Part shown: positions 8,423 to 29,800 of the stretch, piece after piece
Numbering within the stretch: the stretch's first letter is position 1
How the letters are laid out: each line of letters starts with the position of its first letter
Source of the DNA: Defluviitaleaceae bacterium
Lineage (GTDB): Bacteria; Bacillota; Clostridia; Lachnospirales; WQUN01
Length of the DNA stretch: 64,000 bases
Direction: 5' to 3'
Assembly (NCBI GenBank): GCA_009779835.1
Contig: WRBD01000008.1
Location: 1-64,000 of the forward strand
Position numbers and translations under genes: made by a program
Notes under the pieces: model-generated
The model's database searches: none
Told to the model about the DNA's origin: nothing
The model's input: the letters and a program-made list of their open reading frames with translations, nothing else

Positions 8423-8570
8423 CTAGTGGCGTTTAATCCCACTTGCTTTTTTGCCTGCATCGTAGACGCTTTTTTCTCCCGTATCTACTTTGGTAACGCT
8501 TTGCGCATCAACAATTCCAAGACTTGCTTTATTTTTAAGTAATTCGCCGTTTCTATGGGTTGTTACCAAT
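8423..8570 (-). pseudogene. IS5-family-like DDE transposase fragment
   Basis: Minus-strand frame reads HRNGELLKNKASLGIVDAQSVTKVDTGEKSVYDAGKKASGIKRH then stop; compare the IS5 motif IIDSQSVKT...GYDAGKKIKGRKRH. Confidence 0.75.
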
Positions 8571-8580
8571 TTTTTAAAAC

Positions 8581-8592
8581 ACATGATCATGT
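8581..8592. promoter_or_regulatory. 12-bp perfect palindrome ACATGATCATGT upstream of the cluster's first gene
   Basis: Direct sequence reading; 47 nt upstream of the predicted TTG start at 8640. Confidence 0.3.
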
Positions 8593-8639
8593 TAAAAAAA
8601 ATAATTAATTTTGATGCATATATTTTGGAGGGATTATTT

Positions 8640-10865
8640 TTGCGCTCAATTAGAAAAGTTGTTTTCTTAATTTTATCACTACTCTTTATTGTATTAATGG
8701 TGTCCTATGCGGGAGCAAGCACTCCGGGAAGGTTTGACCTTGACGTAATAATTGTAATTGATAATAGCGGTTCAATGCGTCAAGCTGACCCGGATATGCT
8801 CGCACTAACAGCAGCCAACTTATTCATTGACATGAATGCGGGTTCGGATTCACGCATTGGATATGTTATGTACACGCAGGCAATTGTAGGACGACGTGAC
8901 CTAACCGAGTTGGTCAGTTTCAGAAGAGATATTAAAAATGAAATTTCCGCCACACGCTGGGATCCGAGAGGATGGACAGATATAGCATTAGGGATTGAAA
9001 CCGCGCTTGAGATGTTTGCCAATGAAAGCGACAGGTCGCGTATGCCCATGATAATTCTTTTAAGCGACGGTAATACAGAGCTTGAAGTTCCCGCACATAT
9101 TAATCCGCGCCCGATACGCACCACAGCCGAATCGAATGCGGCACTTGAAGTTGCAATAACAGATGCTGCCAACATGGGTATTCCTATTTACACCATCGGT
9201 TTTAACTTCGATGGTGAGCTTGATATGCCCACGATGGATAGAATAGCTGCCACAACAGGCGGAATAATGCGCGAAACTAATGTTGCAAGCAATCTTCCTG
9301 CTATTATGGGCGAAATATACAGCCATATAACCGGAGCGAGAAGTTCATCCCATCGGATTATCGGAACAGGTTATCCACAGTCTGTAGTCATATCAGTTGA
9401 AAATAATAGCATACATAGTGCGATGGTTACGATAATTTCCGGCAGACCCATAAGAGACATTTCTTTTACCGACCCGCGTGGCGCAGAATATGATGGTTAC
9501 GATGTAAACACAGATGCCAGCGGAGTATACACTTTGCTCACACTTACAAACCCAAGCATGGGTGATTGGACTCTGACCTTTACCGGTTCGTCAGGAGATA
9601 TTATTTTTATTGACTTATTGAGTATCTATGATATGGAGTTTGTGTTTGATCTTCCGCGAACAACACCGAGACCGATGGGAGCGGATTATAGTGAGGCAGA
9701 ATTTTCGTGGCGACTTGAAGACGAAAGTGGCGCAACCGTTACAGATACAGATTTGATTAATAAGCTTGAACCAAGGCTGTTTTTAAGGAGTGCCGACACG
9801 GACACAGAACAAACAATAAATCTAAACCCCGGTGAAACATCTCGCGTTATGCATCTTATTCCGGGTGATTATTCTGCATATATGACTCTAGATAGTGGCG
9901 GAATTATAAGAACATCTCACACGCATACATTCACCGTACCGGAACCGCCGCCGGAACCGGGAATTGCCCCTATAAGCTTTATTCCCGGACAGCTGGGACG
10001 GGACGATACTTACAATGTCTCGATGATGACAATATTTAGCGCCTCAGCCACGATAGATTTACACGATTTTATCCATGTTCCGGTTCATAACTCAATTATT
10101 TCCATAACCGCCGGCAGAGGTGATTGGTTTGATTATATTGAGTGGAATTATGATTCGTTCCGCGAGCGAATAGATTTATCCGCTATCAACGCGGGAAGCA
10201 CTGAAATAAGAGTTACCGTAACCGATGATTTAGACCCCGAAACTAATTTACATTTCACAATCGACATAAATATTTCATCCGGATGGCTTCCCATTATAAT
10301 AGCGGCTGCGATTTTGCTTTTAATTATCATAATCATAATTGCTGCTATTCAAGCAAAAAAACCTAAAATTAACGACCCAATGAGCAAGCTTTATATAAAA
10401 ATGTCGTTACCGTCAAATTTGGATACGGAAGTGCCGCCCGAATATGCACTTGCACTTCCCGCAATAAAAGGCAAAAAATCATTACGCGAAATTATTAACA
10501 TGAATATGAGTATTTCTGAGCCGTACCGTGCCGCGTTTGCACCGATAAGCTGGTTTGCCGACAGAGCGGTTATTTCGGCGAAATCAAAAAGCCTTCTTGA
10601 AATAAAAATTCCGTCAAATGCGGGCTGCACCGTTAAAGTTGATAAACAAACAGGGAAAAATTCCGTGGTATTCGGACGTGATGGAGGTGCGGAAATTCGC
10701 ATAGGTTCCACAAGCAGCGGGTACGATGAATACGACGAATTTGTAATTGAGTTTGGAAGTCCTAATAAAGGCGGCAACAACGCCTCGATGGATTTTTCCG
10801 ATGGATTTAATATACGCAATTCACAGTCAACCGTAAAAATTGATGATGATAATTTTTGGAACTAG
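8640..10865 (+). CDS. secreted/membrane-anchored VWA-domain protein (cluster gene 1)
   Basis: RBS ggaggg at 8627-8632 then TTG start at 8640 (the ORF track starts upstream at 8490); signal peptide MRSIRKVVFLILSLLFIVLMVSYAGAS; MIDAS DVIIVIDNSGSMRQ; C-terminal TM WLPIIIAAAILLLIIIIIIAAIQAKK and cytoplasmic tail. Confidence 0.9.
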   Translation: MRSIRKVVFLILSLLFIVLMVSYAGASTPGRFDLDVIIVIDNSGSMRQADPDMLALTAANLFIDMNAGSDSRIGYVMYTQAIVGRRDLTELVSFRRDIKNEISATRWDPRGWTDIALGIETALEMFANESDRSRMPMIILLSDGNTELEVPAHINPRPIRTTAESNAALEVAITDAANMGIPIYTIGFNFDGELDMPTMDRIAATTGGIMRETNVASNLPAIMGEIYSHITGARSSSHRIIGTGYPQSVVISVENNSIHSAMVTIISGRPIRDISFTDPRGAEYDGYDVNTDASGVYTLLTLTNPSMGDWTLTFTGSSGDIIFIDLLSIYDMEFVFDLPRTTPRPMGADYSEAEFSWRLEDESGATVTDTDLINKLEPRLFLRSADTDTEQTINLNPGETSRVMHLIPGDYSAYMTLDSGGIIRTSHTHTFTVPEPPPEPGIAPISFIPGQLGRDDTYNVSMMTIFSASATIDLHDFIHVPVHNSIISITAGRGDWFDYIEWNYDSFRERIDLSAINAGSTEIRVTVTDDLDPETNLHFTIDINISSGWLPIIIAAAILLLIIIIIIAAIQAKKPKINDPMSKLYIKMSLPSNLDTEVPPEYALALPAIKGKKSLREIINMNMSISEPYRAAFAPISWFADRAVISAKSKSLLEIKIPSNAGCTVKVDKQTGKNSVVFGRDGGAEIRIGSTSSGYDEYDEFVIEFGSPNKGGNNASMDFSDGFNIRNSQSTVKIDDDNFWN

Positions 10866-10877
10866 GAGGGTTCTTTT

Positions 10878-13800
10878 ATGGCACTTGGGAAAATGCAGAG
10901 GGAACATCTTGAATCGGAACTTCTACTAAGTAAAGGCGGAGGTATTTATTACGATAACGCCCGCGTAGAAGCAAGCGAAACAGAAGCGACACTGTTCGTT
11001 GGGCTTGGAGGAACAGGTGCGGATATGCTGATTCGCATAAAAAATGAGGTTAAGCGACGCATGGTTTTACCTTCCACAAACGGAAAAATCGTTTCCGATA
11101 CGCCGCAAAATATAGGATTCCTCGCGATTGACACAGATAAAACATCTATGAAAAAAGCATGGGGTACGGCGACTTTCGACCAATTTGGTTCGGAGTTTTG
11201 TTCAATTGCGGTCCATGATAAGCAAGCTATCGTTACAAAATGGAAATCGCTTGCGGAATCCAATGCCGAAGAAGCATCTTGGTACGATAAAATTGATGCG
11301 GAAGCCGCATTGCCCGGCGCAGGCGGCAAACGTCAAATAGGACGGCTTTTACTTTTTGAAAATATAAGAAACGTAACCGACTGCATGGAAAGAAAGATTA
11401 GATGTTTAATCGCCGGCGGCATTAATAATGTAACAGTTGTAGTTGTTGCAGGTATCGCCGGCGGAACAGGCTCGGGTACGTATATTGATATCGCCTATAT
11501 CGCGCGAAAAGTTCTTGAGGAGCTTGCGATTCCCGGAAGAAATATTTTCGGTTATATAGTCTTGCCGGACGTAAACTTATTAAACGGCGGTAATCAAGAT
11601 GTTTTAAAACGCAACGGATTCGCCGCGTTAAAAGAACTCGACTATTGGATGAGTCCCGGTAAATATGAACATGATGATCAATTTGTTCAGAGTTACGGTG
11701 CAGGTGTGAGCGTTCGTTCTATCGCGAGCCGCCCATTTAATTTTTGTCACTTACTTTCCGCGCAAGACATGAACGGAATGCCTCTTACTTATAACAAAGT
11801 TATCAGTAGTATGGCGGAAAATATTTTTGCATATATTGCGGCGGAAGTTGGAGCTACTGCCGATAGTAGCGGCAACAGCACAATGGGTGCTATGTATGAC
11901 AATATTAACGAGTATATAGACAGTCTTTCGGCTAAAGCACCGATTCCCGCGTGTTATCGGTACCTTGCGGTTGGAAGCACAAAATTGGAAATTCCTTATG
12001 AAGAAATTTCTACGTTGCTTGCAATTGAATTATTTAAACGTCTTCAACCTACATTTGATTTGCGTCCGACAGAAGAAACTTTTAAGACGGATATGACAGC
12101 TTTACGGCTTGTTCCCAAAGACGTTGTACACAACAGCCTTACAAGAAAAGTTCCCCCGTCACCCCTTGATGGGCAGCCAAATTATCAGCACGGACAAATT
12201 TGGGGTGGCGAAAACGTCGGGCCAAGAAACAACCGCGCTTATGGGGATGTTTATCAGTGGATTGCACGCGAATTTCAAATTGCGGTAACTGAAAGTATCA
12301 AGAATTGGTCTAACGACCAAATAGGGGTTTTTCAAAATTTTATCTCGGACAGCATGAAAAAGCCCGACCGTGGGCCAGTGTATCTTTCCGCATTGATAAA
12401 ATCCGATAACAAGTGGAGTATAATCCCAACCCTAACAAGCATGGCGGAGCAATGCGACGGCATTGCCGCAACTTGTATGTCGCAAGTTGGGCAAATTGAA
12501 AATAAACTTCAATCCGCTTACAACGCGGGTCATGGAAAACTTATAAACAGAGGAAAATACGTCAGTGATTATTTGTCGGCGTTATTTGAGTGGATGAATA
12601 ATGAAAACGCAATATATGTTTATCCAGAACGCGCAAAAGAAATTCGCGCACTTCGCGACAGACTTCAAGTTTATTATGATAAAGTTTTTTCAAAGCTTGC
12701 CGATGTTCTTGAAGCATTGCCTGATATTTTCCGTCAAAATTATGATTACATGGTAATTGCTGAACGCGAAGCGGAAAGCGAAGGCCGGATTGAAAACGAC
12801 ACAAGACTTATTTGGCCGCTTAAATATGTGAAAAAGAAAGCCACGGAGTTACGTGATTTTGACAAAATGCTTGATGAGGGAGTTATTCGTTTCCTTGACG
12901 ACATGACTGTTAATCTTTCACGTTGGACGGGAAACGACCTTGAAAATTTAGACGAAGCTTCATCTGGCACGGACGTTCCGGGATTCATTTCTCATTTTAT
13001 CAGCGAGCAGTTCGGCGGTCTTCTTACAATTAACATGGAAGATATTATGCGAAGCAAAGAAGGCGCGGATGATTTGGACAGATACCTTCATCTAACCTTA
13101 CCAGGCATGAAAGATAAAGCGGTGCCGATGTTTAGTATGAGGCAACAATTCAGAAATAACGGCATAGCTGAATTCGGGCTTACTTCCGTTCCGCAGGATT
13201 GCCTTGAAATTAAATCCGCCGCAAATAAATATGTAAAATCTGACAAAATGTTTATTAAAACAAGTAAAGAAAAGACGCGTCTTTATTTTGTTAAAGTTGT
13301 TTCCGGTGTTCCATTGTATGCATACTCTAAAATTGAGGACATGGAAAAAGAATACGAAACTGCGAAAAGAACTACAACCACCCGCGATGGCACACATCTT
13401 TACGGCAAATGGTGGGAGCGCGACGTTATGCCTTCTCCGTTGCCGGAAAAAGCTTGGACACCTACGGTTTACACAAACCCGGATGCGAAAGCATATAATG
13501 ACTCCATTAGCGAAGCATTTAATTTCTGCTTAAAAAATAGTATTATCCGCCCTGATAACGAAAACAGCCCATCGAGATATTACTTATACATAGCAGATCC
13601 GAAAAAAGCGGATTTGTCAAATTTAGATTTTGGCGAAATGTCGATTCAAGAAAAACTTAGTGTGTTAGAAGAAGAATTTAACAGTTTATGGAGCGGAAAT
13701 TCGATTGAACTTGTAGGCATGGGAACAAGCAGCACTGCTGACTTCTTGGAAACCATACGTCTAAGCGTTTTACGCTTACCGCGCATTTGCAATGAACTTA

Positions 13801-14282
13801 AACGCCAGCGCGAAATAGCTTCAAGTTTTGTGCAAATGAAGAAAGAACTTGGCGACCCGAATGTATTCGCATCAGCTTTAATTTGCGGGCTTGTTACAAA
13901 ACAAGATTTAAATATCGTATTAAAGCGTTCCATAGGCTCGGCAAGTTATGAAGCACTTTACGACATAACTCTCGAAAAACCTTTTGGTGAACACGAAGCA
14001 TATACCGCTTTCCGTAAACTCTTGGACGATGAACGGCGCGATGAAATTGAAATGATGCGAAAAGAAATGCTAAAACGCATATCAAGAGACGACACAGAAA
14101 AATCCGAAGTTACGGAACGCGTTGAAACCATCGTAAAAACGTACACAAATGGTCTTCAAGAAATTAAAGGTCGCATAGAACGCGCACCGGCAGATAGACG
14201 CAAACCCTTGAAGGATATTTATTCATTTTACGATTCTGTTTTAAAAGTTGCGGAAAGATATAAAAATAACTATTTGGTTTAA
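10878..14282 (+). CDS. tubulin/FtsZ-superfamily-like GTPase, large (cluster gene 2)
   Basis: ATLFVGLGGTGADMLIRIKNEV (FtsZ-like N-terminal nucleotide loop), FLAIDTDKTSM, NVTVVVVAGIAGGTGSGTYIDIAYIARKVLEE (tubulin signature); long C-terminal extension. Confidence 0.85.
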   Translation: MALGKMQREHLESELLLSKGGGIYYDNARVEASETEATLFVGLGGTGADMLIRIKNEVKRRMVLPSTNGKIVSDTPQNIGFLAIDTDKTSMKKAWGTATFDQFGSEFCSIAVHDKQAIVTKWKSLAESNAEEASWYDKIDAEAALPGAGGKRQIGRLLLFENIRNVTDCMERKIRCLIAGGINNVTVVVVAGIAGGTGSGTYIDIAYIARKVLEELAIPGRNIFGYIVLPDVNLLNGGNQDVLKRNGFAALKELDYWMSPGKYEHDDQFVQSYGAGVSVRSIASRPFNFCHLLSAQDMNGMPLTYNKVISSMAENIFAYIAAEVGATADSSGNSTMGAMYDNINEYIDSLSAKAPIPACYRYLAVGSTKLEIPYEEISTLLAIELFKRLQPTFDLRPTEETFKTDMTALRLVPKDVVHNSLTRKVPPSPLDGQPNYQHGQIWGGENVGPRNNRAYGDVYQWIAREFQIAVTESIKNWSNDQIGVFQNFISDSMKKPDRGPVYLSALIKSDNKWSIIPTLTSMAEQCDGIAATCMSQVGQIENKLQSAYNAGHGKLINRGKYVSDYLSALFEWMNNENAIYVYPERAKEIRALRDRLQVYYDKVFSKLADVLEALPDIFRQNYDYMVIAEREAESEGRIENDTRLIWPLKYVKKKATELRDFDKMLDEGVIRFLDDMTVNLSRWTGNDLENLDEASSGTDVPGFISHFISEQFGGLLTINMEDIMRSKEGADDLDRYLHLTLPGMKDKAVPMFSMRQQFRNNGIAEFGLTSVPQDCLEIKSAANKYVKSDKMFIKTSKEKTRLYFVKVVSGVPLYAYSKIEDMEKEYETAKRTTTTRDGTHLYGKWWERDVMPSPLPEKAWTPTVYTNPDAKAYNDSISEAFNFCLKNSIIRPDNENSPSRYYLYIADPKKADLSNLDFGEMSIQEKLSVLEEEFNSLWSGNSIELVGMGTSSTADFLETIRLSVLRLPRICNELKRQREIASSFVQMKKELGDPNVFASALICGLVTKQDLNIVLKRSIGSASYEALYDITLEKPFGEHEAYTAFRKLLDDERRDEIEMMRKEMLKRISRDDTEKSEVTERVETIVKTYTNGLQEIKGRIERAPADRRKPLKDIYSFYDSVLKVAERYKNNYLV

Positions 14283-14329: not shown

Positions 14330-16390
14330 ATGAAAGTGCAAGCCGATGATATTATTAAAAAAATATCGGAGATTCGTTCGTTTACCGATGACAGTTACTT
14401 GAAAACAACGCATTACGCCATCTTTCTTTTGTTTGGTTGCTTGGACGAAATGAAAGTAACATTGGAGCAACGTGCGAGAGAGATTATAGTTGACAAAAAA
14501 GCCATTTCATTTTTAACAGTGGAAAATGCAGCCGGTGTTGCGCAAGATGTTAAATCGGCCATTGATGAAGTTTCGCGAAGCGGCGTTGATTTGCAAAACC
14601 TTACGGAACTTCATTTTTGCCCGATTATTGTTTCGGATATGGCTGCCCCTGCACTTTATGGCGAGGTTGTTGATGTACTTGAAACGTATAAGCAAAATAA
14701 TGATTTACTTACCATTTGGAAGCCGTTTATCATTCTTAATACGGAAGAACACTCTACAATCGAGTGGTTGAATGTAATTTCACTTAAAATGAAAGAGCTT
14801 TCAGATAATGGTGCGGCGAATTGTTGTCGTTGTTGCATAATGACGCGAAAGGATGAAGATTTTTTTGCTGTAACTGACGAGCGACTTTTAAATACGGTTT
14901 TATTTGTGTCACTTCTTCACGCAAATGACACTACGCGTGAAGGAATTGGGCGGTGTATTGCTTATCGCAGAGAATATCCCGAAGAGTTTTATTATACTGC
15001 GCAAACAGTTTTTATTTCTAATCCGGTCATAATGCGCACGTTGCACTGCATCCGAATGCTTCTTGACCGCATAGATGAAGAAGGTGGCACAGAGCAAGAA
15101 CTGGATTTAACATTTACGGGGGAAATACTGGAACCGCTTTACGCAAGACTGCCGAATGAAGGGGAGCAAGTTACATTTGTCCCTCTATTAGGTGTTATGC
15201 CGGAACCTAACGGAAGCATGGACGGGTTTATGTCGCGGCTTAAAGAATTTGCAAAAACACATTATCTTTCCCAATTTGACATCAATAAAGCAGATATTTT
15301 TCTACGTTTCCGCAAGGGGTTTTTGCGCTCGTTTATTGAGTCGGGCATGAATGTGGAATTTTTGCACGGGATAATAGGTAATGATAATGAAATTAAAAAA
15401 TTATCAAGAACAACAGTTGCTGTTCAAATGAGTTCCTTGCCGGCGTTTACGCGAAAAAGTGGAATTTCCTCTGAAAATTTAGATTTGTATGCAATTATCG
15501 AAAGCAAATTGCGCTCGAAGCTTAACAGCTTAGGTTCCGAGTTGGTTGAGGAATTTCTGCGAAGCGAAGAATTTATTTCGCTTCCCGCGCTTTATAACGA
15601 TGCGCGAAAATTACTTAGAGACGTTTCAAACGAACTTGTCGAAGAAGTTGACAGACGAAACAGAAGCGGTGTTGAAATTTACTTAGACTTACTGGGCGAG
15701 CCGGATGAACAACTTGTCTTCAACGTGGCGAAAGAGCTTAGCTCGCAGTCAATTTTTTCTCAATTTATCTCCGACATCACGCTTGCTATGGAAAGAAGCG
15801 ACGAAGATGGCGTCAATGAAGCTTTGGGGGATTTATTGGAGTCCCTTTACAACTCCGTAAGGGGGCTTTCCGGCGGAAGCGGCGCAAGAGATTATATGAA
15901 CTTACTTTCGCGTACATGCCAAAATCCTTCTGATAATGTTGTAAAACACTGTATTCAAAAAATAAGTTCGCAGTTGAAATTTCCGATGCGTTTTAATAAT
16001 AAAACCGGGCGCAAAAAATGCACTTTTATGTGGGGAAGCCAAGATAATAATTTCTATAGCGCATGGGAGCGGCAACAAACTATTTCAAACACAGATAATG
16101 AATTTTTACCAATACCCTCGAAAGAACGATTTGTAATTCTTTCAGTTTCACCTGCGTTTACAATGAAAGATATACGCGGCATCACAGGTGCTGCGCAAAC
16201 ACAACAGGAACCGGAAGAGCCGCAAATTTATGAAATACCGCCTGAATCAATTCCGAAACCGGCGGAAGAACCGGAATTGCCCCGGAAACCGATAGAAAAA
16301 TCAGCTCCGCCGCCTGAACCTGATGAATGGTCAATACCTGACTCTCAACCAACGCAACCTCTTGAAGACATAGAAAACCCGTGGGAGTAA
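14330..16390 (+). CDS. unknown-function protein with Pro/Glu-rich C-terminal tail (cluster gene 3)
   Basis: Long ORF in operon register; no recognised family; tail PEEPQIYEIPPESIPKPAEEPELPRKPIEKSAPPPEPDEW. Confidence 0.85.
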   Translation: MKVQADDIIKKISEIRSFTDDSYLKTTHYAIFLLFGCLDEMKVTLEQRAREIIVDKKAISFLTVENAAGVAQDVKSAIDEVSRSGVDLQNLTELHFCPIIVSDMAAPALYGEVVDVLETYKQNNDLLTIWKPFIILNTEEHSTIEWLNVISLKMKELSDNGAANCCRCCIMTRKDEDFFAVTDERLLNTVLFVSLLHANDTTREGIGRCIAYRREYPEEFYYTAQTVFISNPVIMRTLHCIRMLLDRIDEEGGTEQELDLTFTGEILEPLYARLPNEGEQVTFVPLLGVMPEPNGSMDGFMSRLKEFAKTHYLSQFDINKADIFLRFRKGFLRSFIESGMNVEFLHGIIGNDNEIKKLSRTTVAVQMSSLPAFTRKSGISSENLDLYAIIESKLRSKLNSLGSELVEEFLRSEEFISLPALYNDARKLLRDVSNELVEEVDRRNRSGVEIYLDLLGEPDEQLVFNVAKELSSQSIFSQFISDITLAMERSDEDGVNEALGDLLESLYNSVRGLSGGSGARDYMNLLSRTCQNPSDNVVKHCIQKISSQLKFPMRFNNKTGRKKCTFMWGSQDNNFYSAWERQQTISNTDNEFLPIPSKERFVILSVSPAFTMKDIRGITGAAQTQQEPEEPQIYEIPPESIPKPAEEPELPRKPIEKSAPPPEPDEWSIPDSQPTQPLEDIENPWE

Positions 16391-16418: not shown

Positions 16419-17042
16419 ATGCAACCGATAGCGTTGTTAAATCTTTCGGGTAAATATGTAAACGGAGAAGTTTCCCTTTCATGGAAATACCCGCCGCAAT
16501 CGCCCGACACTGTTTATGTGTTACCTGTTTGCGGAACGGGAGCTACCCGCCGTGCAAATACAACAGAAATGTCGGAGCATATGTTGCGAGATGTTACAAG
16601 CGGAACGAAGTTTAAATATCAATTCCGAAGCCCGCATGGTGTAATGCGTTGCGAATTTCTTGTTTTTCTTGGGAATAGCGGCGACGATATTCCTAATATG
16701 GAAAGGCTTTTGGATAACCCGGCACTTACCGTTACTGTTACCGTGGGAAATGCAATTGTTTTTTACGATGTGAAAACAACAAAAGTGGAAAACGATTTTG
16801 TGAAACATATAATCACTTTAAAATCATCATGCAGTATGGAGCAGGGAATATTAGGATATTCGTTTGCATCGTGCGAGAGAAGGTTTTCCGCACCTTTTCC
16901 GGGAGCGATTGAACGAGGGAAACGAAAGTACCCTCCGTTTTACACACGTGTAGGTTCAGATGTTTTTGTTGAAGTTGTAAACGGGACAAACGCTGATGTT
17001 CAAACAATTGCAAAACCAATATCCACATTTCTGTTCGGATAA
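16419..17042 (+). CDS. small predicted beta-rich protein, unknown function (cluster gene 4)
   Basis: RBS cggaggtg; FN3-like start LLNLSGKYVNGEVSLSWKYPPQSPDTVYVLPV; no recognised family. Confidence 0.8.
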   Translation: MQPIALLNLSGKYVNGEVSLSWKYPPQSPDTVYVLPVCGTGATRRANTTEMSEHMLRDVTSGTKFKYQFRSPHGVMRCEFLVFLGNSGDDIPNMERLLDNPALTVTVTVGNAIVFYDVKTTKVENDFVKHIITLKSSCSMEQGILGYSFASCERRFSAPFPGAIERGKRKYPPFYTRVGSDVFVEVVNGTNADVQTIAKPISTFLFG

Positions 17043-17062: not shown

Positions 17063-18802
17063 ATGTCATATTACCCAATTAAATGCCCATATTGCTTGGA
17101 GGAACTCTCAAACGAAGATATCTGTTTTAATATGAAAACAGGAATCGAAGGTAAGCGGCGCGAAATAAGAGAAGATTCTCCCATGCAAAACTCGGGTTCT
17201 TTCAATGGTTTGCCGGAATCAAGCAAACGGACAGCTTCTGTAGATGGCACACCCCTTCCGGATATCAGTTGGCTGGAGGATGATAGCAACAGTGATGCGG
17301 GTTGGCTGGATAGCTCTGATAGTAAAAAAAGCTCTGCCAATCGACAAATTAACGCGCCGACGGAAGGTTTTTATACTTTGTCCGAATTAAAAAAACATTT
17401 CGGTGAAGAAAATGTGAAGCCGCTTTTAGACAGGGATGTTCATGCACCGCCTGCACTTGCAAACAAGCCGGAATATAGAGCAGATTTACTTGTCGGCGTT
17501 GAAATTACAACTCGTAAAGATGGATATGAAACCACCACTACTTACAGGAAGCGTTATTGTGAGTGTGAAAAAGAACTTATGAACGCCGCCGGAATGAAAG
17601 CAAGCTATGTAATTTTGATGCTTGGGCCAAGTAGTTCAGGTAAAACAATGTTTTTAATTGCGTTGCACAAAGCATTGAAAGTTGACGGCGGGTATCTTTT
17701 ACCGCCACCTGAAGACGAAAATTCTCGAGGGGGTATTGCAAAACTTCTTGTCACTGTTTTGTCTGGCGGAGGAGAAGGAGATACGTCACTTAATAAAATG
17801 TCGGATGATTTATTCGATGACGGAAAATTGCCGTTGTCAACATTTTCGTTGGAAAATGAACCGCTTGTGCTGGACGTTTCTGTAGATTTTAAAAATGGGA
17901 AAAGTAATAACGCGCTTTTATTTCTTCGCGATATGCCGGGTGAATGGTTAACGAAACCGGACAAAGCAGAAGAACTTGAAACTATTGCAAAGCAGTTTTC
18001 ATTATTTGATGCATTCATAATGATGCTGGATCCGTTTACATTCACAAGCCGCAATGTTTTCAGAAGCGAAGGTAATAATGAAAATATGGATAAAATAAAA
18101 TTAAAATATATAGACATCCTCAATGGAGTTTTGACAGGTCAAGTTGTGCCCTATGTGGGCGGAAAAAAAATAAACAAACCAACAGCCGTAGTAATAACAA
18201 AGGGCGACCATTTTTTCAATCAGCAGAATTATCAACGATTGGAGCAAAATGGTGTTGCGCGCTCGTTCCCAACGCTTACCTCTTGGCAGAAAGCCAGTTT
18301 TGATAAACTTTATTTTTCCGAAATAGATAATGATGTCGGGCGCATTTTAAACAGCCTTTCAATCAATATAATAAATATGCTTGAAAAAAATTTCGGAAAT
18401 ACATTTTACGCTTTGGTTTCTGCGTTAAGCAAACTTCCAATTGACATCGAATATAATAAAGAAGGCTCTCTTGGGCGGGGCGATTACGTTTCTAACCCCA
18501 ATGTTATAAAGCCGTGGCGTGTCGCAGACCCGTTTATTCGTATGCTTATGCGACTTAATATTGTGCCGCCGTTTGACAAAGTTGAAATTCGCACGATTGA
18601 TATGGAACCACACGATTTAAGGCTTGGACGAAACACAAAATATCTCGCGGAAGTTAATGATTGGGGCAGGACATACTGTAATGCATGGGACGACCTTGCG
18701 GGTGAAATTTTGCCGACAAAAGGCGGACAAACGAGGCAGACGGGATCGGGGCAACCACAAAAACCGCCAAGAAAAGGAATCTTCGGAGGGTGGAAAAAAT
18801 GA
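17063..18802 (+). CDS. zinc-ribbon TRAFAC-like GTPase (cluster gene 5)
   Basis: N-term IKCPYCLEEL; Walker A LGPSSSGKTMF; G3-like LFLRDMPGEW; G4-like VVITKGDHF. Confidence 0.82.
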   Translation: MSYYPIKCPYCLEELSNEDICFNMKTGIEGKRREIREDSPMQNSGSFNGLPESSKRTASVDGTPLPDISWLEDDSNSDAGWLDSSDSKKSSANRQINAPTEGFYTLSELKKHFGEENVKPLLDRDVHAPPALANKPEYRADLLVGVEITTRKDGYETTTTYRKRYCECEKELMNAAGMKASYVILMLGPSSSGKTMFLIALHKALKVDGGYLLPPPEDENSRGGIAKLLVTVLSGGGEGDTSLNKMSDDLFDDGKLPLSTFSLENEPLVLDVSVDFKNGKSNNALLFLRDMPGEWLTKPDKAEELETIAKQFSLFDAFIMMLDPFTFTSRNVFRSEGNNENMDKIKLKYIDILNGVLTGQVVPYVGGKKINKPTAVVITKGDHFFNQQNYQRLEQNGVARSFPTLTSWQKASFDKLYFSEIDNDVGRILNSLSINIINMLEKNFGNTFYALVSALSKLPIDIEYNKEGSLGRGDYVSNPNVIKPWRVADPFIRMLMRLNIVPPFDKVEIRTIDMEPHDLRLGRNTKYLAEVNDWGRTYCNAWDDLAGEILPTKGGQTRQTGSGQPQKPPRKGIFGGWKK

Positions 18803-21729
18803 CGGGACATCATATTTACACACGCTCTTGGTATGAATACGATTCACGATCCAAGAATCCGGGTACTTTTACGGTTGAACTTACAAGCGGGCTTTTTGAG
18901 CCAAATACAAGTGATGTTATTTATCACAAATTAAATCCTGTTTTGGCGGGAACGCAGCCTTCAATTGCGGGGTATGACTTGGAGCATTCTTTACTTCGCA
19001 TTTTTCATCCGACTCCGGATTCAACTGTTGTTGCGCGAAGTTATTTTGTAAACGATGAAATTACAAAGCGCGGCATTGTGCAATACAGTTTCGGGCTTGT
19101 GTTTTCCAATGAAGCAAATAACAGATTTTTGCGTTTTCCAAAACACGCGTTTGAGCTTTCAGCCGTTGAACCTTATGAAGAATTTGTTAAGCGCGTTTCG
19201 GAAGAAGAGCCGATTGAGTATTCCTCCATGTATGACCCCAACCCGAATGATTATCAACAGCCAACAGTCTTTTCACGCGAAGACTTGATGCGAATCGGTT
19301 TTAATGAAGACATTTTTACAAAGTTCTTCATCTCACTGGGGAAAGCTATTACTTCTCAAAAAGATGACCAAAGAGTTGCGGTGATTCTTCCCGAAGTACA
19401 TACAGGTGAAAAGATAATTTTAGCTGTTTTAACTATTCTTCCGCCGTGGCTTGTAGGCAAATTTGGTGCAGTTTCACGTTGGTCCGGTGCGCTTGAAGGC
19501 AGAAACTCGGCATCAATTAACGGCATTCAATTGGTTTTTTATTCAGGAGAAAAGCCTCCTCACGACACCATTTCAGCCATAATTGATTTAACAAACGCAC
19601 ATCTCCACAAAAACATTGAAGACATAACCGCAGAACAACAAGAACTTGCTAAATGGTATTGGGAAAACATCGGCAAACCCGATAATTTGAAAAGCATGGC
19701 GGATTACATGATTGAAAAATACCGGCAACTTATGGATAAAATGCCGTTTCCTGTTTTTGCTCATTGTTTTTATTTATGGAATACGTTCCATTTAAATAAT
19801 TATGATACTAAGTTTCTATCATTCAGCATGGCTTCGCGTGCAATTAACAGCATTGTCAGCGCTTTTGGAAAAAATTTAGAAAAATACTTCTCAAACAAAT
19901 TTATGCTAACGAGTATTTTTAGAATTTTCATAGAACAGCTTGAAAGTTCTGCTACATCACAGATTAGTGAATCTACAGTGCGCTCGGTTTGCTTACTTGC
20001 AAACAACGATTTTAAAGCAGGTGACCAACTTCAAGCAAGGCATTTTATTAAACCAATGGCAGACAGGTTTTTTGATTACAACGAATGGATTAAACTTGAG
20101 CCGATTCTACAATACTACTCCAAAATGTTGAAAGATAGCGCATCGGAAGAAAATTTTAATGAAGCAATCGCATTTTTCGGGTTGGCTTTATTAAGTGTGA
20201 ATAAAAAACTTGCAGATGATGCCGCAGCGGTTCTTTCAAATTATGCCAATGCAAGCGTTGCTGTAATGCTTGCTGAAGGTACAAATCATGTGAATGAGTA
20301 TAAAAAAATTGCACTTTTACTTAAAGATGCAAAAAGACAAATGAATTTGGACATTTCAACATGGGAAAATGTTTCAAAGAATGAAGCCGCTTCACGAATG
20401 TTTTTTCTTTTGGAAAAATTTAATCGTGAGAATGCAAATATAAATCCGCCGGGCAACAAACAGCTTGATAATGTTCTAAATGGGATTCAAAAACTACAGC
20501 CCAGTGAAAAAAGCGACGCTATTCAAACCTTGCTTTATCTTTACTGGAATGCGGACACGTTAAAAGATGCCGCTCAAATGCAAAAATACGTGAAATATTT
20601 GCATGAAAACCAAAAATTAAAATTATACTTACAAAACGATATAGGCACAGATGATATTCGCGAAATTTTTAAAGGCGAAGTTGACCATGCCTTAGATACC
20701 CGCGAATTTATCTCTGATGACGAAAAAATCAACGCAATTTTAGAATGGCTTGCCAAACTCCGAAATGATTGTGGTTTCCCCGATTCCGACCCGATTTTTA
20801 TGCACCTTGGGGAGAAGCTTACGGTGCTTGGCGGAATAGATACAATATGTGAAGTATTAAGCCCGAAATCAATAAAAACACTTGCCGAAGTATTTAAAAA
20901 ACTTGGCGCAACCGATAAGGCGGATATGCTTTATGAAATTATAAAATTCGATGAAGCAGGCGGCTCAAAAGGTGATTTTTCAAGAATAATTAGAAATTCG
21001 AATGTGAAATATAAATATTTCTTAATACGAATTGAATATTGGTTTAACAATTCAACAGATATTCCCGCCGAGTGGGCACTGACTCGCGCTGTTTATGAAG
21101 CAGAAAGTAGAAACATGGCGTTAAGTTACACTTCTACCACTGCTGAAATGTACCTGAACTACAGGCGTGATAAGCGCGAACCAAAAGAAGATTTGATAGA
21201 TTTATACGAGGCAATGCATCTTGTAGATGATGGCCGTTACGAACACAGTATTTCAGATGATATTTTTAAATCTTTGAAAGGCAAAGTTTTTCAAATTGTC
21301 AACGAACTTGAAGACAGAAATTTTTGCGATACCTTGTTTGCAACCGCCACAAAGTTTAAAAATTTTGCGAGTCCGCATTCAATCCATACGCGAATGTATC
21401 AAGCGGGAAGAGAAATTGCTAATCGAATAAAAAATAACTACTCTTCCGAAGACCCGCCCTATGATATTCTTAAAAAATTTCATCCGGGCGAAGGGGCGCC
21501 AATGTCATTCGCCAGTGATTATTCCGTGTTACCATCTGTGTTATCATTTTTTATATTTATTGGGGTTTGCCTTGCTACGGTTTCCGGTATCATTTTGATT
21601 TTAAGCCCGGTGGGTCTTACGGGAATGCTGTTGACGATGTTTCCGCTTTGGTTTGTAACCGTCTTGGCTGTATGTATGTTTATATCTCTTGTACTTACGA
21701 TATTTCAATTACTTTATCCCGATTATTAA
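18799..21729 (+). CDS. GTPase-associated-protein-1 (GAP1)-like large protein with C-terminal TM segments (cluster gene 6)
   Basis: 4-nt overlap with upstream GTPase gene; start ATG 18799 with RBS ggagg (the ORF track starts at GTG 18790); N-term HHIYTRSWYEYDSRSKNPGTFTVELTSGL...GIVQYSFGLVFS; C-term TM helices SVLSFFIFIGVCLATVSGIILIL and MFPLWFVTVLAVCMFISLVLTIF. Confidence 0.7.
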   Translation: MTGHHIYTRSWYEYDSRSKNPGTFTVELTSGLFEPNTSDVIYHKLNPVLAGTQPSIAGYDLEHSLLRIFHPTPDSTVVARSYFVNDEITKRGIVQYSFGLVFSNEANNRFLRFPKHAFELSAVEPYEEFVKRVSEEEPIEYSSMYDPNPNDYQQPTVFSREDLMRIGFNEDIFTKFFISLGKAITSQKDDQRVAVILPEVHTGEKIILAVLTILPPWLVGKFGAVSRWSGALEGRNSASINGIQLVFYSGEKPPHDTISAIIDLTNAHLHKNIEDITAEQQELAKWYWENIGKPDNLKSMADYMIEKYRQLMDKMPFPVFAHCFYLWNTFHLNNYDTKFLSFSMASRAINSIVSAFGKNLEKYFSNKFMLTSIFRIFIEQLESSATSQISESTVRSVCLLANNDFKAGDQLQARHFIKPMADRFFDYNEWIKLEPILQYYSKMLKDSASEENFNEAIAFFGLALLSVNKKLADDAAAVLSNYANASVAVMLAEGTNHVNEYKKIALLLKDAKRQMNLDISTWENVSKNEAASRMFFLLEKFNRENANINPPGNKQLDNVLNGIQKLQPSEKSDAIQTLLYLYWNADTLKDAAQMQKYVKYLHENQKLKLYLQNDIGTDDIREIFKGEVDHALDTREFISDDEKINAILEWLAKLRNDCGFPDSDPIFMHLGEKLTVLGGIDTICEVLSPKSIKTLAEVFKKLGATDKADMLYEIIKFDEAGGSKGDFSRIIRNSNVKYKYFLIRIEYWFNNSTDIPAEWALTRAVYEAESRNMALSYTSTTAEMYLNYRRDKREPKEDLIDLYEAMHLVDDGRYEHSISDDIFKSLKGKVFQIVNELEDRNFCDTLFATATKFKNFASPHSIHTRMYQAGREIANRIKNNYSSEDPPYDILKKFHPGEGAPMSFASDYSVLPSVLSFFIFIGVCLATVSGIILILSPVGLTGMLLTMFPLWFVTVLAVCMFISLVLTIFQLLYPDY

Positions 21730-21745
21730 AGGAGCGAAGAGTCTT

Positions 21746-22711
21746 ATGAGAAGAAGACATTTTTTTGTACTTACGTTTTTTTTGTTGTTCTTGGCAGCAG
21801 CTACTTTGCCCGCGCATATTTTAATTTACGCGGACACCGAATGCGAAAATTTCAATTGCGATGATGATGACTGCGATGGCGAAAATTGTGTTGAAGAAGA
21901 TACACCCGCCGCCGACCCAAATGACCTCACGTATGCTTTTTTATGTCCGGTTTTCCGTGCTGCTATCCGTGATGAATTGAATCATAAAGAAGAAAATGGG
22001 AACTATCCTCCTATATACCAAGAAGATTTAAATAGAATTACGCGGCTAAGTTTATACGGCGGCGAAATGGAACGTCTGCACGGCACTAGGATAAGAAGTC
22101 TTGCGGGTGTTGAACATTTAACTAATTTGGAATACTTGAAAGTTGATAGCAATTATCTCATTCCTTTTGATGAAGAAACCGGAACAGGGATAGACGTATC
22201 ACAGAATGAAAAATTAACAGAATTAAATGTGCACAATAATTTTATCAGTAGTCCCGATGAAGTAAAAGGGTGGCGAGATGGTTTTCACATTGGAAGTGGA
22301 GTGGCTCGCACGGACGTTCCTCGTCCGCCATATCCTATGCCTGCCCCGGGAATAACTCCTCCTCCCCATTCTGAGCCAACCACTGCTTCCAATGAAGAAA
22401 ACACTGCCGGCGAAGAAGACAACTATGACAACGAAGGAAACCGTGAGTCATTTGGTGTTCCAATAGAAAGGAATCATCCCAATGAAGTTATACGACGGGC
22501 ACTGAGGGATTCCACTTCATTTGAGGGTACGGTAGTTCTTTCTGTTGACGTACGACGCGAAAGTTATAATAGTGATTGGGTTGTAATAAATGCAAGCGAA
22601 GTACCCGAACCCGGCACTCTATATGTAATATTCACATGGGTACTGGTTGTCTTGATTTTTCTAATGTTTATATTAAATCTATTGATTCTTATAGTTCGTA
22701 GTAGAAATTAA
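21746..22711 (+). CDS. secreted leucine-rich-repeat protein with acidic Cys motif and C-terminal TM (cluster gene 7)
   Basis: Start ATG 21746 with RBS aaaggag; signal peptide; CENFNCDDDDCDGENC; LRR segments ITRLSLYGGEM.. LTNLEYLKVDSNYL.. LTELNVHNNFI; terminal TM. Confidence 0.82.
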   Translation: MRRRHFFVLTFFLLFLAAATLPAHILIYADTECENFNCDDDDCDGENCVEEDTPAADPNDLTYAFLCPVFRAAIRDELNHKEENGNYPPIYQEDLNRITRLSLYGGEMERLHGTRIRSLAGVEHLTNLEYLKVDSNYLIPFDEETGTGIDVSQNEKLTELNVHNNFISSPDEVKGWRDGFHIGSGVARTDVPRPPYPMPAPGITPPPHSEPTTASNEENTAGEEDNYDNEGNRESFGVPIERNHPNEVIRRALRDSTSFEGTVVLSVDVRRESYNSDWVVINASEVPEPGTLYVIFTWVLVVLIFLMFILNLLILIVRSRN

Positions 22712-22729: not shown

Positions 22730-24085
22730 ATGGTTATAAAATCACCGTTAAATTTTTTAATGCTACTTTTTAGTTTTTTTGCGGCAATTGCCGTTTTCTT
22801 TTTGGGCGAGGTTTTACTTAGATTTATCTCGGGCTTGCCGTTTATTTTTCAATGCGCGATTTATTTGACCTTTGTAACAACTCTTTGCTTTGCTGCAATT
22901 TTTATTTCGGAAAAAATTTATTCGGGTTATTACATTCCGCGCGGACGTGTTACTTTTGGCGGAACTTGCGCAAAAGCGGCGGCAATTTTTATCCCTTGCG
23001 CGTTCGCTCTCGGGCTTCTTACGCAGTTACTTTACGGTTTTATTTTTACGGAAACCCGTGGCGACCATACAGTCGTAGATGGAGAAGTTTCCGGCGCAAT
23101 GATACAAATGATTGGCGAAATGGAAATAGGACGCCGCGACGCGCTGGATTTGGTCATTGTGGTAGATACCACCGGTTCTATGGGTTCGTATATTAACGAT
23201 GTCAGAAGGGATATTAGTCATGTGTATGACGCACTTGCAAACCAAACCCGCGATTTCCGTGTGGCACTTATAGATTACAGGGATTTTCCCTCACGCACCA
23301 TGTATGCGGGCGACTATCCCGCCAAGCTTCAGCTTAATTTTACATCGGAACGGCATGAAATTGCCAATGCCATAAACGCGCTCACATTGGGTAACGGAGG
23401 GGATATACCGGAAACCATGTATTCCGCGCTAAGCATGGCGGCGGGACTTGATTGGCGACCGGATGCGCATAAACACATCATTGTGCTTACAGACGCGGAA
23501 CCGCTTGACCCCGAACCCTATACATACTACACCATGAACCAAATAATTGATATGTTGGAATACGGGGACATTGAGCTGCACCTTATAGGTGCGGGCGATA
23601 GTCCGGTTATGCTTGCCTTTTTTGAAGAAATATCTGAACGTACGGGGAATGATTTTGCTCATGTTGTACCGGTAATTACGTTTGCAAGTTTTATAGTAGA
23701 ACAAGAAATTGAAACTTGGTGGGAAAGACCTCATTTACTTTTGGCGTTTGACGGCTCAGGGGAAAGGGGAGGTGCTATGAAAATTGCCGTACACGCCTTA
23801 TTAATGTCACTTTGGGGAATATTCACAGGCATTGCTGTAGTTGTATTCTTAAATAACAGCAAATTGTTTACCACGTTTTTGATACACCGGATTATTGTTT
23901 CGATAGTTATATCAACTATATTTGCAATAATGATGGCAGATGCAGACATAATTACGAATTTGGCGGCGCGCGCATTATTAGCATTAGGAGTTTGCCTATT
24001 ATATCTGCCGACATTCAGTTGGGGCGATACTATTGCACCTCAAAATAGGAATCCTACTGCGCCCTCGGCAGATTCGGGATGGTAA
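22730..24085 (+). CDS. multi-TM membrane protein with VWA domain (cluster gene 8)
   Basis: N-terminal TM segments, DLVIVVDTTGSMGSYINDVRRDI (VWA), C-terminal TM segments. Confidence 0.9.
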   Translation: MVIKSPLNFLMLLFSFFAAIAVFFLGEVLLRFISGLPFIFQCAIYLTFVTTLCFAAIFISEKIYSGYYIPRGRVTFGGTCAKAAAIFIPCAFALGLLTQLLYGFIFTETRGDHTVVDGEVSGAMIQMIGEMEIGRRDALDLVIVVDTTGSMGSYINDVRRDISHVYDALANQTRDFRVALIDYRDFPSRTMYAGDYPAKLQLNFTSERHEIANAINALTLGNGGDIPETMYSALSMAAGLDWRPDAHKHIIVLTDAEPLDPEPYTYYTMNQIIDMLEYGDIELHLIGAGDSPVMLAFFEEISERTGNDFAHVVPVITFASFIVEQEIETWWERPHLLLAFDGSGERGGAMKIAVHALLMSLWGIFTGIAVVVFLNNSKLFTTFLIHRIIVSIVISTIFAIMMADADIITNLAARALLALGVCLLYLPTFSWGDTIAPQNRNPTAPSADSGW

Positions 24086-24092
24086 CCGGTCA

Positions 24093-24815
24093 ATGTTTTT
24101 TGCTGCTAAAAAATTTTCGGTAACTTTTGCCGCCGCGTCGAGAATCGGAAAACGTGAGCGCAATGAAGATTCTGTTATCTCGCTTGTAAAAGACGACAGA
24201 TATTGTTTTGTTGTCGCCGACGGACTGGGCGGGCATGGGCTTGGCGATTTAGCGTCAAAGACACTTACGTATGTTTTTTCGCGTGAATTTGACAGATGCA
24301 CAAATATGAAAAGTAACCGGATATTTCTTTCGCACGCATTCGATTGTGCGCAGGAAGAAATTCTTGCTTTACAAGCCGCGAGGGGTATAAAAAAATATCA
24401 AGCTAAAACAACGGCGGTTGCTCTTTCAATTTTTAATGGGAAATACGCGTGGGGACATGTTGGAGATTCCCGCTTATATCGCTTTAATCGCGATATCTTA
24501 ATCTCCCGCACGTTTGACCATAGTGTGCCGCAAATTCTTGCCCTTTCCAATGAAATTTCCGAAGACGAAATTTCCACGCACCCCGACCGTTCACTTTTGC
24601 TTCACGCATTCGGCGATGAATGGGACGAACCGAAATACGAAATTTCAAAAGAAACATCGCTCAAACGCGGCAACTCATTTTTTTTATGTACGGACGGTGT
24701 TTGGGAATATGCAAAAATAAAACCTCCGCATAACATGGAAATAACCCCTGATGTTTGGCTTTCCGTCATTATGAGTGAAACACGAAACCGCAGGACAGGA
24801 AAGCGATTTAGATAA
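24093..24815 (+). CDS. PP2C-family Ser/Thr phosphatase, C-terminus apparently frameshifted (cluster gene 9)
   Basis: KRERNEDSVISL, CFVVADGLGGHGLGDLAS, WGHVGDSRLYRF; canonical tail DLDNYSAIAITVK present in the +1 frame up to a stop at 24846. Confidence 0.9.
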   Translation: MFFAAKKFSVTFAAASRIGKRERNEDSVISLVKDDRYCFVVADGLGGHGLGDLASKTLTYVFSREFDRCTNMKSNRIFLSHAFDCAQEEILALQAARGIKKYQAKTTAVALSIFNGKYAWGHVGDSRLYRFNRDILISRTFDHSVPQILALSNEISEDEISTHPDRSLLLHAFGDEWDEPKYEISKETSLKRGNSFFLCTDGVWEYAKIKPPHNMEITPDVWLSVIMSETRNRRTGKRFR

Positions 24816-26867: not shown

Positions 26868-29800
26868 ATGGAATTGACTGATTCCCTATCACCGGTGGCG
26901 GATTCGCCGCATTTGGCAAGCAGTTCTGCTTTGCGTGATAATTATGTAATAGAAAAACTTATCGGATACGGCGGTTTCGGCGCGACTTACATAGGTTGGG
27001 ACAAAGCGGGTGACAGACAAGTTGCGATAAGAGAATATTTTCCCGCGGAATTTTCAACGCGTGTTCCGGGGCGTTCGGAAATTTCTATTTTCAACGATTC
27101 AAAAAAACAAAAACAATTTCACGACGGGCTTGTAAAATTTCTTGAAGAAGCAAAACAAATTTCAAAACTTCAAGGTGAAGACGGCATTATTAATATATAC
27201 GACTCCTTTGAGGCAAACAACACGGCTTATATTATTATGGAGTACCTTGACGGAAATTTACTTTCCGAGATTCAAGGCGGCGATAATAAGCACAACAGAT
27301 ACAATGCTACTGTAGCAATTGATTTTGTAATGCCTATTATAAAATCGCTTAAAACTTTACACGATGCCGGTATATATCACTTAGATATCGCGCCGAATAA
27401 TATTTTTATGACAAGCAAAGGCAAAACTAAACTTATCGACTTTTCGGCGTACCGCCATGTAACAACATCGTACACCCGCAGTTTATCCGTTATTGTAAAG
27501 CCGGGGTTTTCGCCGGAAGAACTTTACCGCAGCAGCGGCGACCTTGGTGCGCACACAGATGTTTACGCAATAGGCGCGGTTTTATATCGTTTACTTACGG
27601 GGGTAGTTCCGCCCGATGCAATGTCGCGCAGAATGAATCTTGAAAACGGTAGAAAAGACCCGCTCAAATCTATTAGAAATTTCAATTCAAAAGTTTCTAA
27701 AAGCCAAGAAAACGCAATTATGAACGCGCTGAATGTTCAAATAAAAGACCGCACACCGGATGTTTCAACCTTTGCAGACGAGCTAACATCCGACAACGCA
27801 AAACGGCGCGGGCAAAAGGTAGGATTTCTTGATATCGGAAAATGGTCGGGTAAGGCGAAAGCTATTGTCGGAACAGGCGCGGCGGCGATTATAACTGTTG
27901 TCGTACTTATTTTAATCGGAGTTTTCGCTCCACCGGAATTTGAAATACCGGAAGGTATGGTTGCTGTCCCCAATGTTGTAAATGAATCGCGAGCTTCGGC
28001 GGAAGCGTTACTTGAAGCTGAAAATCTTTTGCCTTTTATTGTCGGCAGGGAGTTTTCGCAAATTATACCCCCGGGCTTTGTTTTATTGCAGGATGTATCA
28101 GCGGGAACCTTTGTTCCTGTTCTTACAAGAGTTTCGCTGACAATCAGTTATGGGGCTGAAATGGTTCTTCTTCCTTTTGTAGTTGGTTTTTCGGCGGACG
28201 AAGCACAGGAGGAATTGGAATCCGTTGGCTTCAGCGTAAGACGAATATACGAATATAGCCGCTTTATTGTAGAAGGTGCTGTTATAAGGACAAACTTTGA
28301 TGATGCCAACTCTGCCGTACTTGGCGCAACCGTAAGGCTTTATATTTCAAGAGGCCCCGACCCGGAATCTGACGAACCGTATTTATCTGACGTTCCGAAT
28401 ATCGAGGGCTTGACGCTTGAAGATGCTATAAGGATTTCAAATGAAGCGGGTTTTGCTGTGGAAGTAATTCACCGCCGCTACGGAACAGAACCAAGATACG
28501 AAGTTATCTCCCAGTCTTTGAATGCCGGTACCCGCACAATGACTGATAACATAATGGGGCTTGTTATTTCTTTGGGTGAAAGAGTGGCTCTTTTACCCGA
28601 CTTGCAGGCAAGAACATTGGAAGACGCGCAAAGGGTTCTTAATAACGCGGGCTTTAACACTAATGTTACAACGGCGCACAGCGAAACAGTAGCAAGAGGG
28701 CTTATAATTTCTCAAAGCCCGGCACCGGGTACATTACTATACGGTACTGCTGTTTCAATAGTGGTTTCTGCGGGAGGATTACCGTTTGCCGCGCCAAATG
28801 TTACCGGATTATCGGAAGACGTCGCCAGAAGTGCGCTTAATACAGAGGGCTTGATGGTTTCAATCAGCTATGAACCCGGAAATCCGGAAGGCAATGTTAT
28901 CAGACAGTCGCCAGATTCCGGCTCTCAGGTTGTCAGAGGCGATACGATATATCTTGTTGTCACCAATAATCGTCCCGTTAATGTTCCGAATGTTGAAGGA
29001 ATGACACGTGAAGCCGCGGAAAACGCGTTAAGAAACGCAGGTTTAAGGTCAAGCGCTTTTGAAAATTTCCATGAAACAGTTGCCGTAGGGCATGTAATTT
29101 CATTCTCGCCAAGCGGAACGCAGCCGGAAACCACAATTATTAACCTTATGATAAGCGCGGGGCGTGAACCGGTTCCTGTTCCCACGGGATTAACGGGAAT
29201 GGAAAAAGTTGAGGCAGAACGCCGAATTTTTGCCGCTAACTTACGCTCCGTTGTAACAGAGGAACATCACGATACCATTGCGGCAGGAATTGTTATATCC
29301 CAAAACCCCGCGTCCGGTATGCTTTTCCGGAACGACCCCGTAAGTATTGTTATTTCGCTGGGTGCGGAAGAAGTATCCGTACCGAACGTCGTAGGGCAAA
29401 CACAATCCGCCGCGCAAAATACGCTTCAAGCGCAACGCTTCCATATGGAAGTTGTTGACGAGCAGTTCAGTAACGCAACACCTCCTGTCCCTGCGGGCAA
29501 CGTAATGCTGCAAACCCCAAACGCGGGGCAGATTCTAACAAGAGGCGGAACCGTAAGAGTTACTTTAAGTCTTGGACCGGTTCCAAATCACCGAATCACC
29601 TATGACCGAAACGATGGCACGGGTACAATGCAGCCGGTTTATGTAAGAAACGGATTACACCATTTCGCAAGCCAAAATCAATTCACCCGCGCAAATTTTG
29701 TATTTGAAAGCTGGAATACCCAAGCTAACGGACAAGGCACAAGATATGACGCGGGTCAAAGAATAAACAATATAGAAGCGCCTATAACTCTTTACGCGCA

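Follow-up and report, generated by a model that had tools for sequence, protein, structure and literature searches.

Tubulin relatives of the FtsZl1 family, and the operons of vWA protein, tubulin and GTPase in which they occur, were described in 2010 by Makarova & Koonin (PMC2875224), who noted that kinases are often encoded there too and suggested membrane remodelling as the role of FtsZl1. In 2020, GAP1-N2 DO-GTPase systems with a tubulin theme were described by Kaur et al. (PMC7159879); in that paper the tubulin and kinase/PP2C themes do not overlap, and the zinc-ribbon-kinase/PP2C theme is actinobacterial. Neither a functional study of FtsZl1/Tubulin_2 proteins, in the literature, nor a solved Tubulin_2 structure was found in our searches. 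Here we describe one such protein, TUB, together with its neighbouring genes, in a window of 64,000 nucleotides (the whole stretch of DNA analysed) from a Defluviitaleaceae bacterium.

The TUB open reading frame (1134 aa) corresponds exactly to its coordinates in Table 1; it begins with ATG, is preceded by an AGGAGG-type ribosome-binding site and lies 12 nt behind the preceding gene, vWA1. A preliminary description of this DNA had called the product a tubulin/FtsZ-like GTPase, about three times the size of FtsZ and not the division protein, and had proposed alignment to the Tubulin_2 family and an AlphaFold-type model with Foldseek as checks; the searches bore it out on each of these points. 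In Pfam, Tubulin_2 (PF13809) matched residues 39-389 with an E-value of 1.8e-59 and 202 bits, above the curated cut-off of 27. When the profile of the TUB family (43 members) was compared with a profile built from 31 FtsZ sequences (other genomes in the host's class), the two matched with 96.9 % probability (E 1.6e-10), the match being confined to the part between strand S1 and roughly helix H5, and the FtsZ similarity of FtsZl1 was likewise limited to S1 to about H5 in the study of Makarova & Koonin (PMC2875224). The AF2 model of TUB was of low confidence (the alignments used for TUB and for P686, discussed below, were small, with 5 and 2 sequences, and both models were poor); all 50 PDB matches listed for it by Foldseek were FtsZ chains, nearly all with a probability of 0.9-1.0. 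Because a canonical FtsZ is encoded on another contig of the same genome (G000:C16:13419, 395-aa frame), TUB is not the division FtsZ, and it scored 12.1 bits against the FtsZ equivalog TIGR00065, the cut-off of which is 295. Judged from its sequence, TUB is a Tubulin_2/FtsZl1-family protein, a relative within the tubulin/FtsZ superfamily that stands apart from the division FtsZ of the cell.

All three GTPase motifs named in the preliminary description were present in TUB, namely VGLGGTGADM (residues 41-50), AIDTDKTS (83-90) and AGGTGSGT (194-201). The GTP loops T1 (residues 42-47) and T4 (194-201) were intact, and both are retained by nearly all of the 43-sequence family. A fourth motif, KLEIPYEEIST (369-379), had been suggested to lie in the place of the catalytic (T7) loop; it was found within a conserved block, Y-x3-G-x6-P, with three invariant residues in the 43-sequence alignment. 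By eye, this block appears to fit the S7 strand and H9 helix that open the second domain of FtsZ better than it fits T7, and NKVISSMAENIFAYIAAEV, upstream of it, is likely to be H7 of TUB. In the candidate T7 region (residues ~325-350) no conserved acidic column was found among the 43 sequences, the highest D+E fraction being 0.44, while Glu314, in the helix that precedes this region, was invariant in 43/43. The catalytic-loop placement of KLEIPYEEIST is probably wrong.

In FtsZ, the T7 acid activates GTP hydrolysis. TUB shares with division FtsZ the fold of the GTPase domain and the T1/T4 loops, but it is three times larger and its family lacks the conserved T7 acid that marks division FtsZ. 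A hydrolysis mechanism of the T7 type is doubtful for TUB, and dynamic filaments are doubtful too because the acid that activates hydrolysis in FtsZ is not conserved. The same loss would suit a TUB that acts as a GTP-binding switch or static scaffold and forms no filaments, the long helical region doing the work, and the authors of 2010 also considered that FtsZl1 might lack filaments (PMC2875224). We regard such a non-filament protein as rather unlikely, since the T1 and T4 loops are strongly conserved and tubulin-like genes occur as adjacent pairs at two loci (L056 and L129).

Past residue 389, no Pfam or NCBIfam family reached its cut-off, in agreement with the ~730 residues of unrecognised sequence reported earlier. 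In the low-confidence AF2 model, long helices were seen at ~450-745 and 868-1132, residues 575-673 resembled a designed helical bundle (E 0.001), and the family alignment revealed a conserved block (~755-835) between the two helical stretches. Of the functions proposed for the extension in the preliminary description, scaffold or partner binding is the best reading, and the effector is not supported: neither Pfam and NCBIfam nor the search that gave the helical-bundle match revealed an effector or enzyme domain. An enzymatic effector hidden in the extension, for which the lack of any recognised domain would leave room, is very improbable, as most of the extension is helical, can be aligned across the family and gave the bundle match. 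The block at ~755-835 could contain the strands and the helix that TUB otherwise lacks from the second domain of FtsZ, displaced behind a coiled-coil insertion; by eye, S7-H9 would lie at residues 361-390 and S8-H10-S9-S10 at about 764-815. The hhalign comparison of the S7 and S8-S10 blocks with FtsZ gave no signal, so the split second domain is a reading by eye, and we infer the structural elements of TUB past H5 in general. An IMG/VR contig (L085:6082-14152) also encodes, behind a large membrane protein, a 1551-aa protein distantly similar to Tubulin_2, in which cysteine-rich stretches resembling zinc fingers lie close to the C-terminus.

TUB belongs to a cassette of 11 genes, all encoded on the same strand from 8490 to 31439 in the order of Table 1 and either closely spaced or overlapping slightly.

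Table 1. Genes of the cassette, in order, with the evidence for each assignment
Feature	Coordinates	Strand	Evidence
vWA1, membrane protein with cytoplasmic tail; vWA domain (DxSxS motif) outside	8490..10865	+	PF00092 E 6.7e-12; two TM helices
TUB, Tubulin_2/FtsZl1 GTPase; GTPase domain (residues 39-389), long helical region, conserved block (~755-835), helical tail	10878..14282	+	PF13809; GTP loops intact; Foldseek matches nearly all FtsZ
P600 (686 aa; P686), partner; candidate tubulin homologue lacking GTP motifs; proline-rich tail	14330..16390	+	no Pfam match; type-B operon position
P200 (207 aa)	16419..17042	+	position; FNIII-like start by eye; no Pfam match
DO-GTPase2, split N-terminal zinc ribbon	17063..18802	+	PF19993 28.7 bits, cut-off 27
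GAP1-N2-like, two C-terminal TM helices	18790..21729	+	orthologue match in L004
LRR-like protein, TM helices (LRR/TM)	21689..22711	+	PF12799 E 9e-5, below cut-off
vWA2, multi-TM vWA protein	22730..24085	+	PF25106 E 3.6e-12; seven hydrophobic stretches
PP2C phosphatase	24033..24815	+	PF13672 E 1e-11
Ser/Thr kinase, zinc-ribbon-like N-terminus, TM helix	24861..26843	+	PF00069 E 1.4e-35
Ser/Thr kinase, TM helix, eight PASTA domains; Flg_new and Ig-like repeats	26868..31439	+	PF00069 E 6.9e-29; PF03793 E 1.2e-83

The annotated TTG start of vWA1 has no clear ribosome-binding site, and its true start probably lies further in. P200 is a probable beta-sandwich and may correspond to the FNIII component in the systems of Kaur et al. 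The cysteine pairs of the zinc ribbon were read in the DO-GTPase2 sequence, which makes it a DO-GTPase with zinc ribbon. Pfam gave no GAP1-N2 match for the GAP1-like protein of the window itself; its orthologue at locus L004 matched PF20013 with an E-value of 5.7e-5 and 23.6 bits, just under the cut-off of 24. An identical 11-gene order was found in the second Defluviitaleaceae genome to which L004 belongs (L004 with L140), and none of the genes read outside the block there matches the flanking genes of the window; the limits of the cassette at 8490 and 31439 are therefore natural ones. In a third genome (L003:2454-10179; L067, G021), a type-A vWA1-TUB pair, 82 % identical to that of the window, is followed by genes unrelated to P600, and the cassette may be truncated at this point, or the contig wrongly assembled. 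Elsewhere in the window, a 2759-aa protein (55296-63575) carries subtilase, CarboxypepD_reg, SdrD_B, Flg_new and dockerin-like domains and, by this domain content, is a large surface or secreted protease; a GH11 xylanase with a copper-amine-oxidase-N-type domain (34119-35465) fits a termite-gut fibre degrader.

Compared with the described systems, TUB resembles FtsZl1 in its N-terminal tubulin GTPase domain and in being encoded beside kinases, a GTPase and a vWA protein; the vWA protein and P-loop GTPase in the operon and the separate FtsZ were all found. The long helices of the low-confidence model and the bundle match (E 0.001) may correspond to the extended coiled coil and largely helical C-terminal domain of FtsZl1. 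TUB differs in that its cassette has eleven genes, among them PP2C, a PASTA kinase, a GAP1-like gene and a conserved P600 of possible tubulin origin. The tubulin theme of Kaur et al. is matched by DO-GTPase2, by a tubulin whose C-terminal part is mostly helical, by the pair of vWA genes and by a Firmicutes host, and perhaps by the GAP1-N2-like protein. The window, however, has one recognisable tubulin plus P600 where the Firmicutes form of that theme has two tubulins, and it adds the zinc-ribbon-kinase/PP2C set, a separate theme in the paper. As only one Tubulin_2 gene was found in the window, with P600 the sole candidate for a second, the firm membership is in Tubulin_2/FtsZl1, and the cassette stands beside the GAP1-N2 DO-GTPase systems as a variant that would work like them. 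What is new here is the joining of the tubulin set to a kinase/PP2C set and the candidate pseudo-tubulin partner, whereas both the family of TUB and its type of operon had been known before; since kinases had already been listed as frequent by Makarova & Koonin, the joining is a variation and not a new kind.

Tubulin_2 was detected in 30/38 genomes of the host's bacterial family and in 8/245 genomes sampled across its class, the window's genome being included in both counts. The genome of Corynebacterium glutamicum also gave matches to Tubulin_2, DO-GTPase2 and GAP1-M. In the tree, type B (15 loci) and type C (13 loci) are each explained by one origin, with moderate support for type C, and the order within both tracks genera; these two types look vertically inherited. 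The TUB of the window (type A) forms a separate, distant lineage of few genomes. The type-B core is vWA-TUB-P600-P200-DO-GTPase (loci from 15 genomes, some contigs ending inside the core), and type C consists either of TUB alone or, in four genomes, of TUB with a P600 relative. The genome of the window also carries a second Tubulin_2 operon, vWA-TUB-P600-P200-DO-GTPase, of type B, the lineage common to most of the bacterial family (L035:8440-17625), and a stand-alone DO-GTPase2/GAP1-N2 pair with no tubulin adjoining (L087:8675-11117).

The wide, genus-following occurrence of types B and C argues for a standing cell function in the bacterial family. Kaur et al. (PMC7159879) proposed a role in conflict for systems of this same type, in which sensing would lead to multimerisation of TUB, containing the invader or limiting the infected cell; type A, whose cassette is patchily distributed and has unrelated flanks, leaves room for this and may be such a module. 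Overall, we find an anti-invader role rather unlikely, as types B and C occur in most of the family and track genera, unlike hypervariable defence genes, a PADLOC search gave no match, and no copies were found by tblastn against phage and plasmid records.

P600, which has no Pfam family, keeps its position downstream of TUB in the type-B operons. When its B and C8 families were joined (P600B+C8) and compared with TUB, the local hhalign P-value was 1.9e-4 (best decoy 0.016), ahead of all decoys and reversed controls, and the global one, over 556-620 columns, was 8.4e-6 (best control 0.0055). Among the weak matches of the P600B+C8 HMM, in the register that was expected, are residues 361-390 of TUB (the S7/H9 block) and the N-terminus of each of the two type-A P600 proteins. 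These results speak against P600 being an alpha/beta plus coiled-coil adaptor unrelated to tubulin, for which other observations can be cited. The global hhalign signal depended on direction (TUB against P600B gave 9.3e-4, and P600B alone did not rank TUB among its best matches), the type-A pair, including P686 of the window, gave no significant profile test against TUB, and a viral structure library searched with the P686 model returned no tubulin. That AF2 model, from a two-sequence alignment with no tubulin in it, has low overall confidence and alternating strands and helices at 28-198; by probability its highest Foldseek matches in the PDB were OdinTubulin (0.95) and gamma-tubulin (0.94), with E about 0.02, while by E-value its top match was an ATP synthase chain. 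On balance, we judge a tubulin ancestry of P600 quite probable and give the unrelated adaptor an appreciable but lesser chance; moderate evidence points to a co-linear tubulin homologue without the GTP motifs. P600 and the 'second tubulin' described by Kaur et al. are unlikely to be the same, as L056 and L129 have two recognisable Tubulin_2 genes in addition to a P600-sized gene.

With P600 taken as a tubulin homologue, we tentatively propose a TUB-P600 heteromer of GTP-binding tubulin and pseudo-tubulin, encoded by adjacent genes and with the second (C-terminal) FtsZ domain split by a long coiled coil in both, which would be controlled from outside through the vWA receptors and the PASTA kinase; we hold this reading at somewhat less than an even chance. 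It is rather probable that TUB is the GTPase of a membrane-associated DO-GTPase/GAP1-N2 'tubulin-theme' module, serving as a GTP-regulated cytoskeletal scaffold at the inner membrane face, coupled to sensors outside. TM helices were found by sequence in vWA1, vWA2, the GAP1-like and LRR-like proteins and both kinases. Sensing the state of the wall or surface would fall to the PASTA ectodomain and to the vWA domains that lie outside, and the kinase/PP2C set and the DO-GTPase-GAP1 pair would act as cytoplasmic switches. GTP-loaded TUB would assemble together with P600 into a scaffold at the inner face of the membrane, using both the tubulin domain and the long helical region. The sequences establish the family of TUB, the operon, its conservation and the TM helices; that TUB binds GTP, polymerises and contacts P600, in what order the signals pass, and whether the result is remodelling of the membrane or containment, we infer. 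In the simplest reading the cassette would sense the envelope and respond, on the cytoplasmic side, with a tubulin scaffold that depends on GTP.

FtsZl1/Tubulin_2 proteins are widespread tubulin relatives. If P600 is a tubulin without motifs, their assembly becomes a testable two-protein problem. In the cassette, PASTA kinase/PP2C signalling is also linked directly with a tubulin-like scaffold, and this suggests that the cell wall exerts control.
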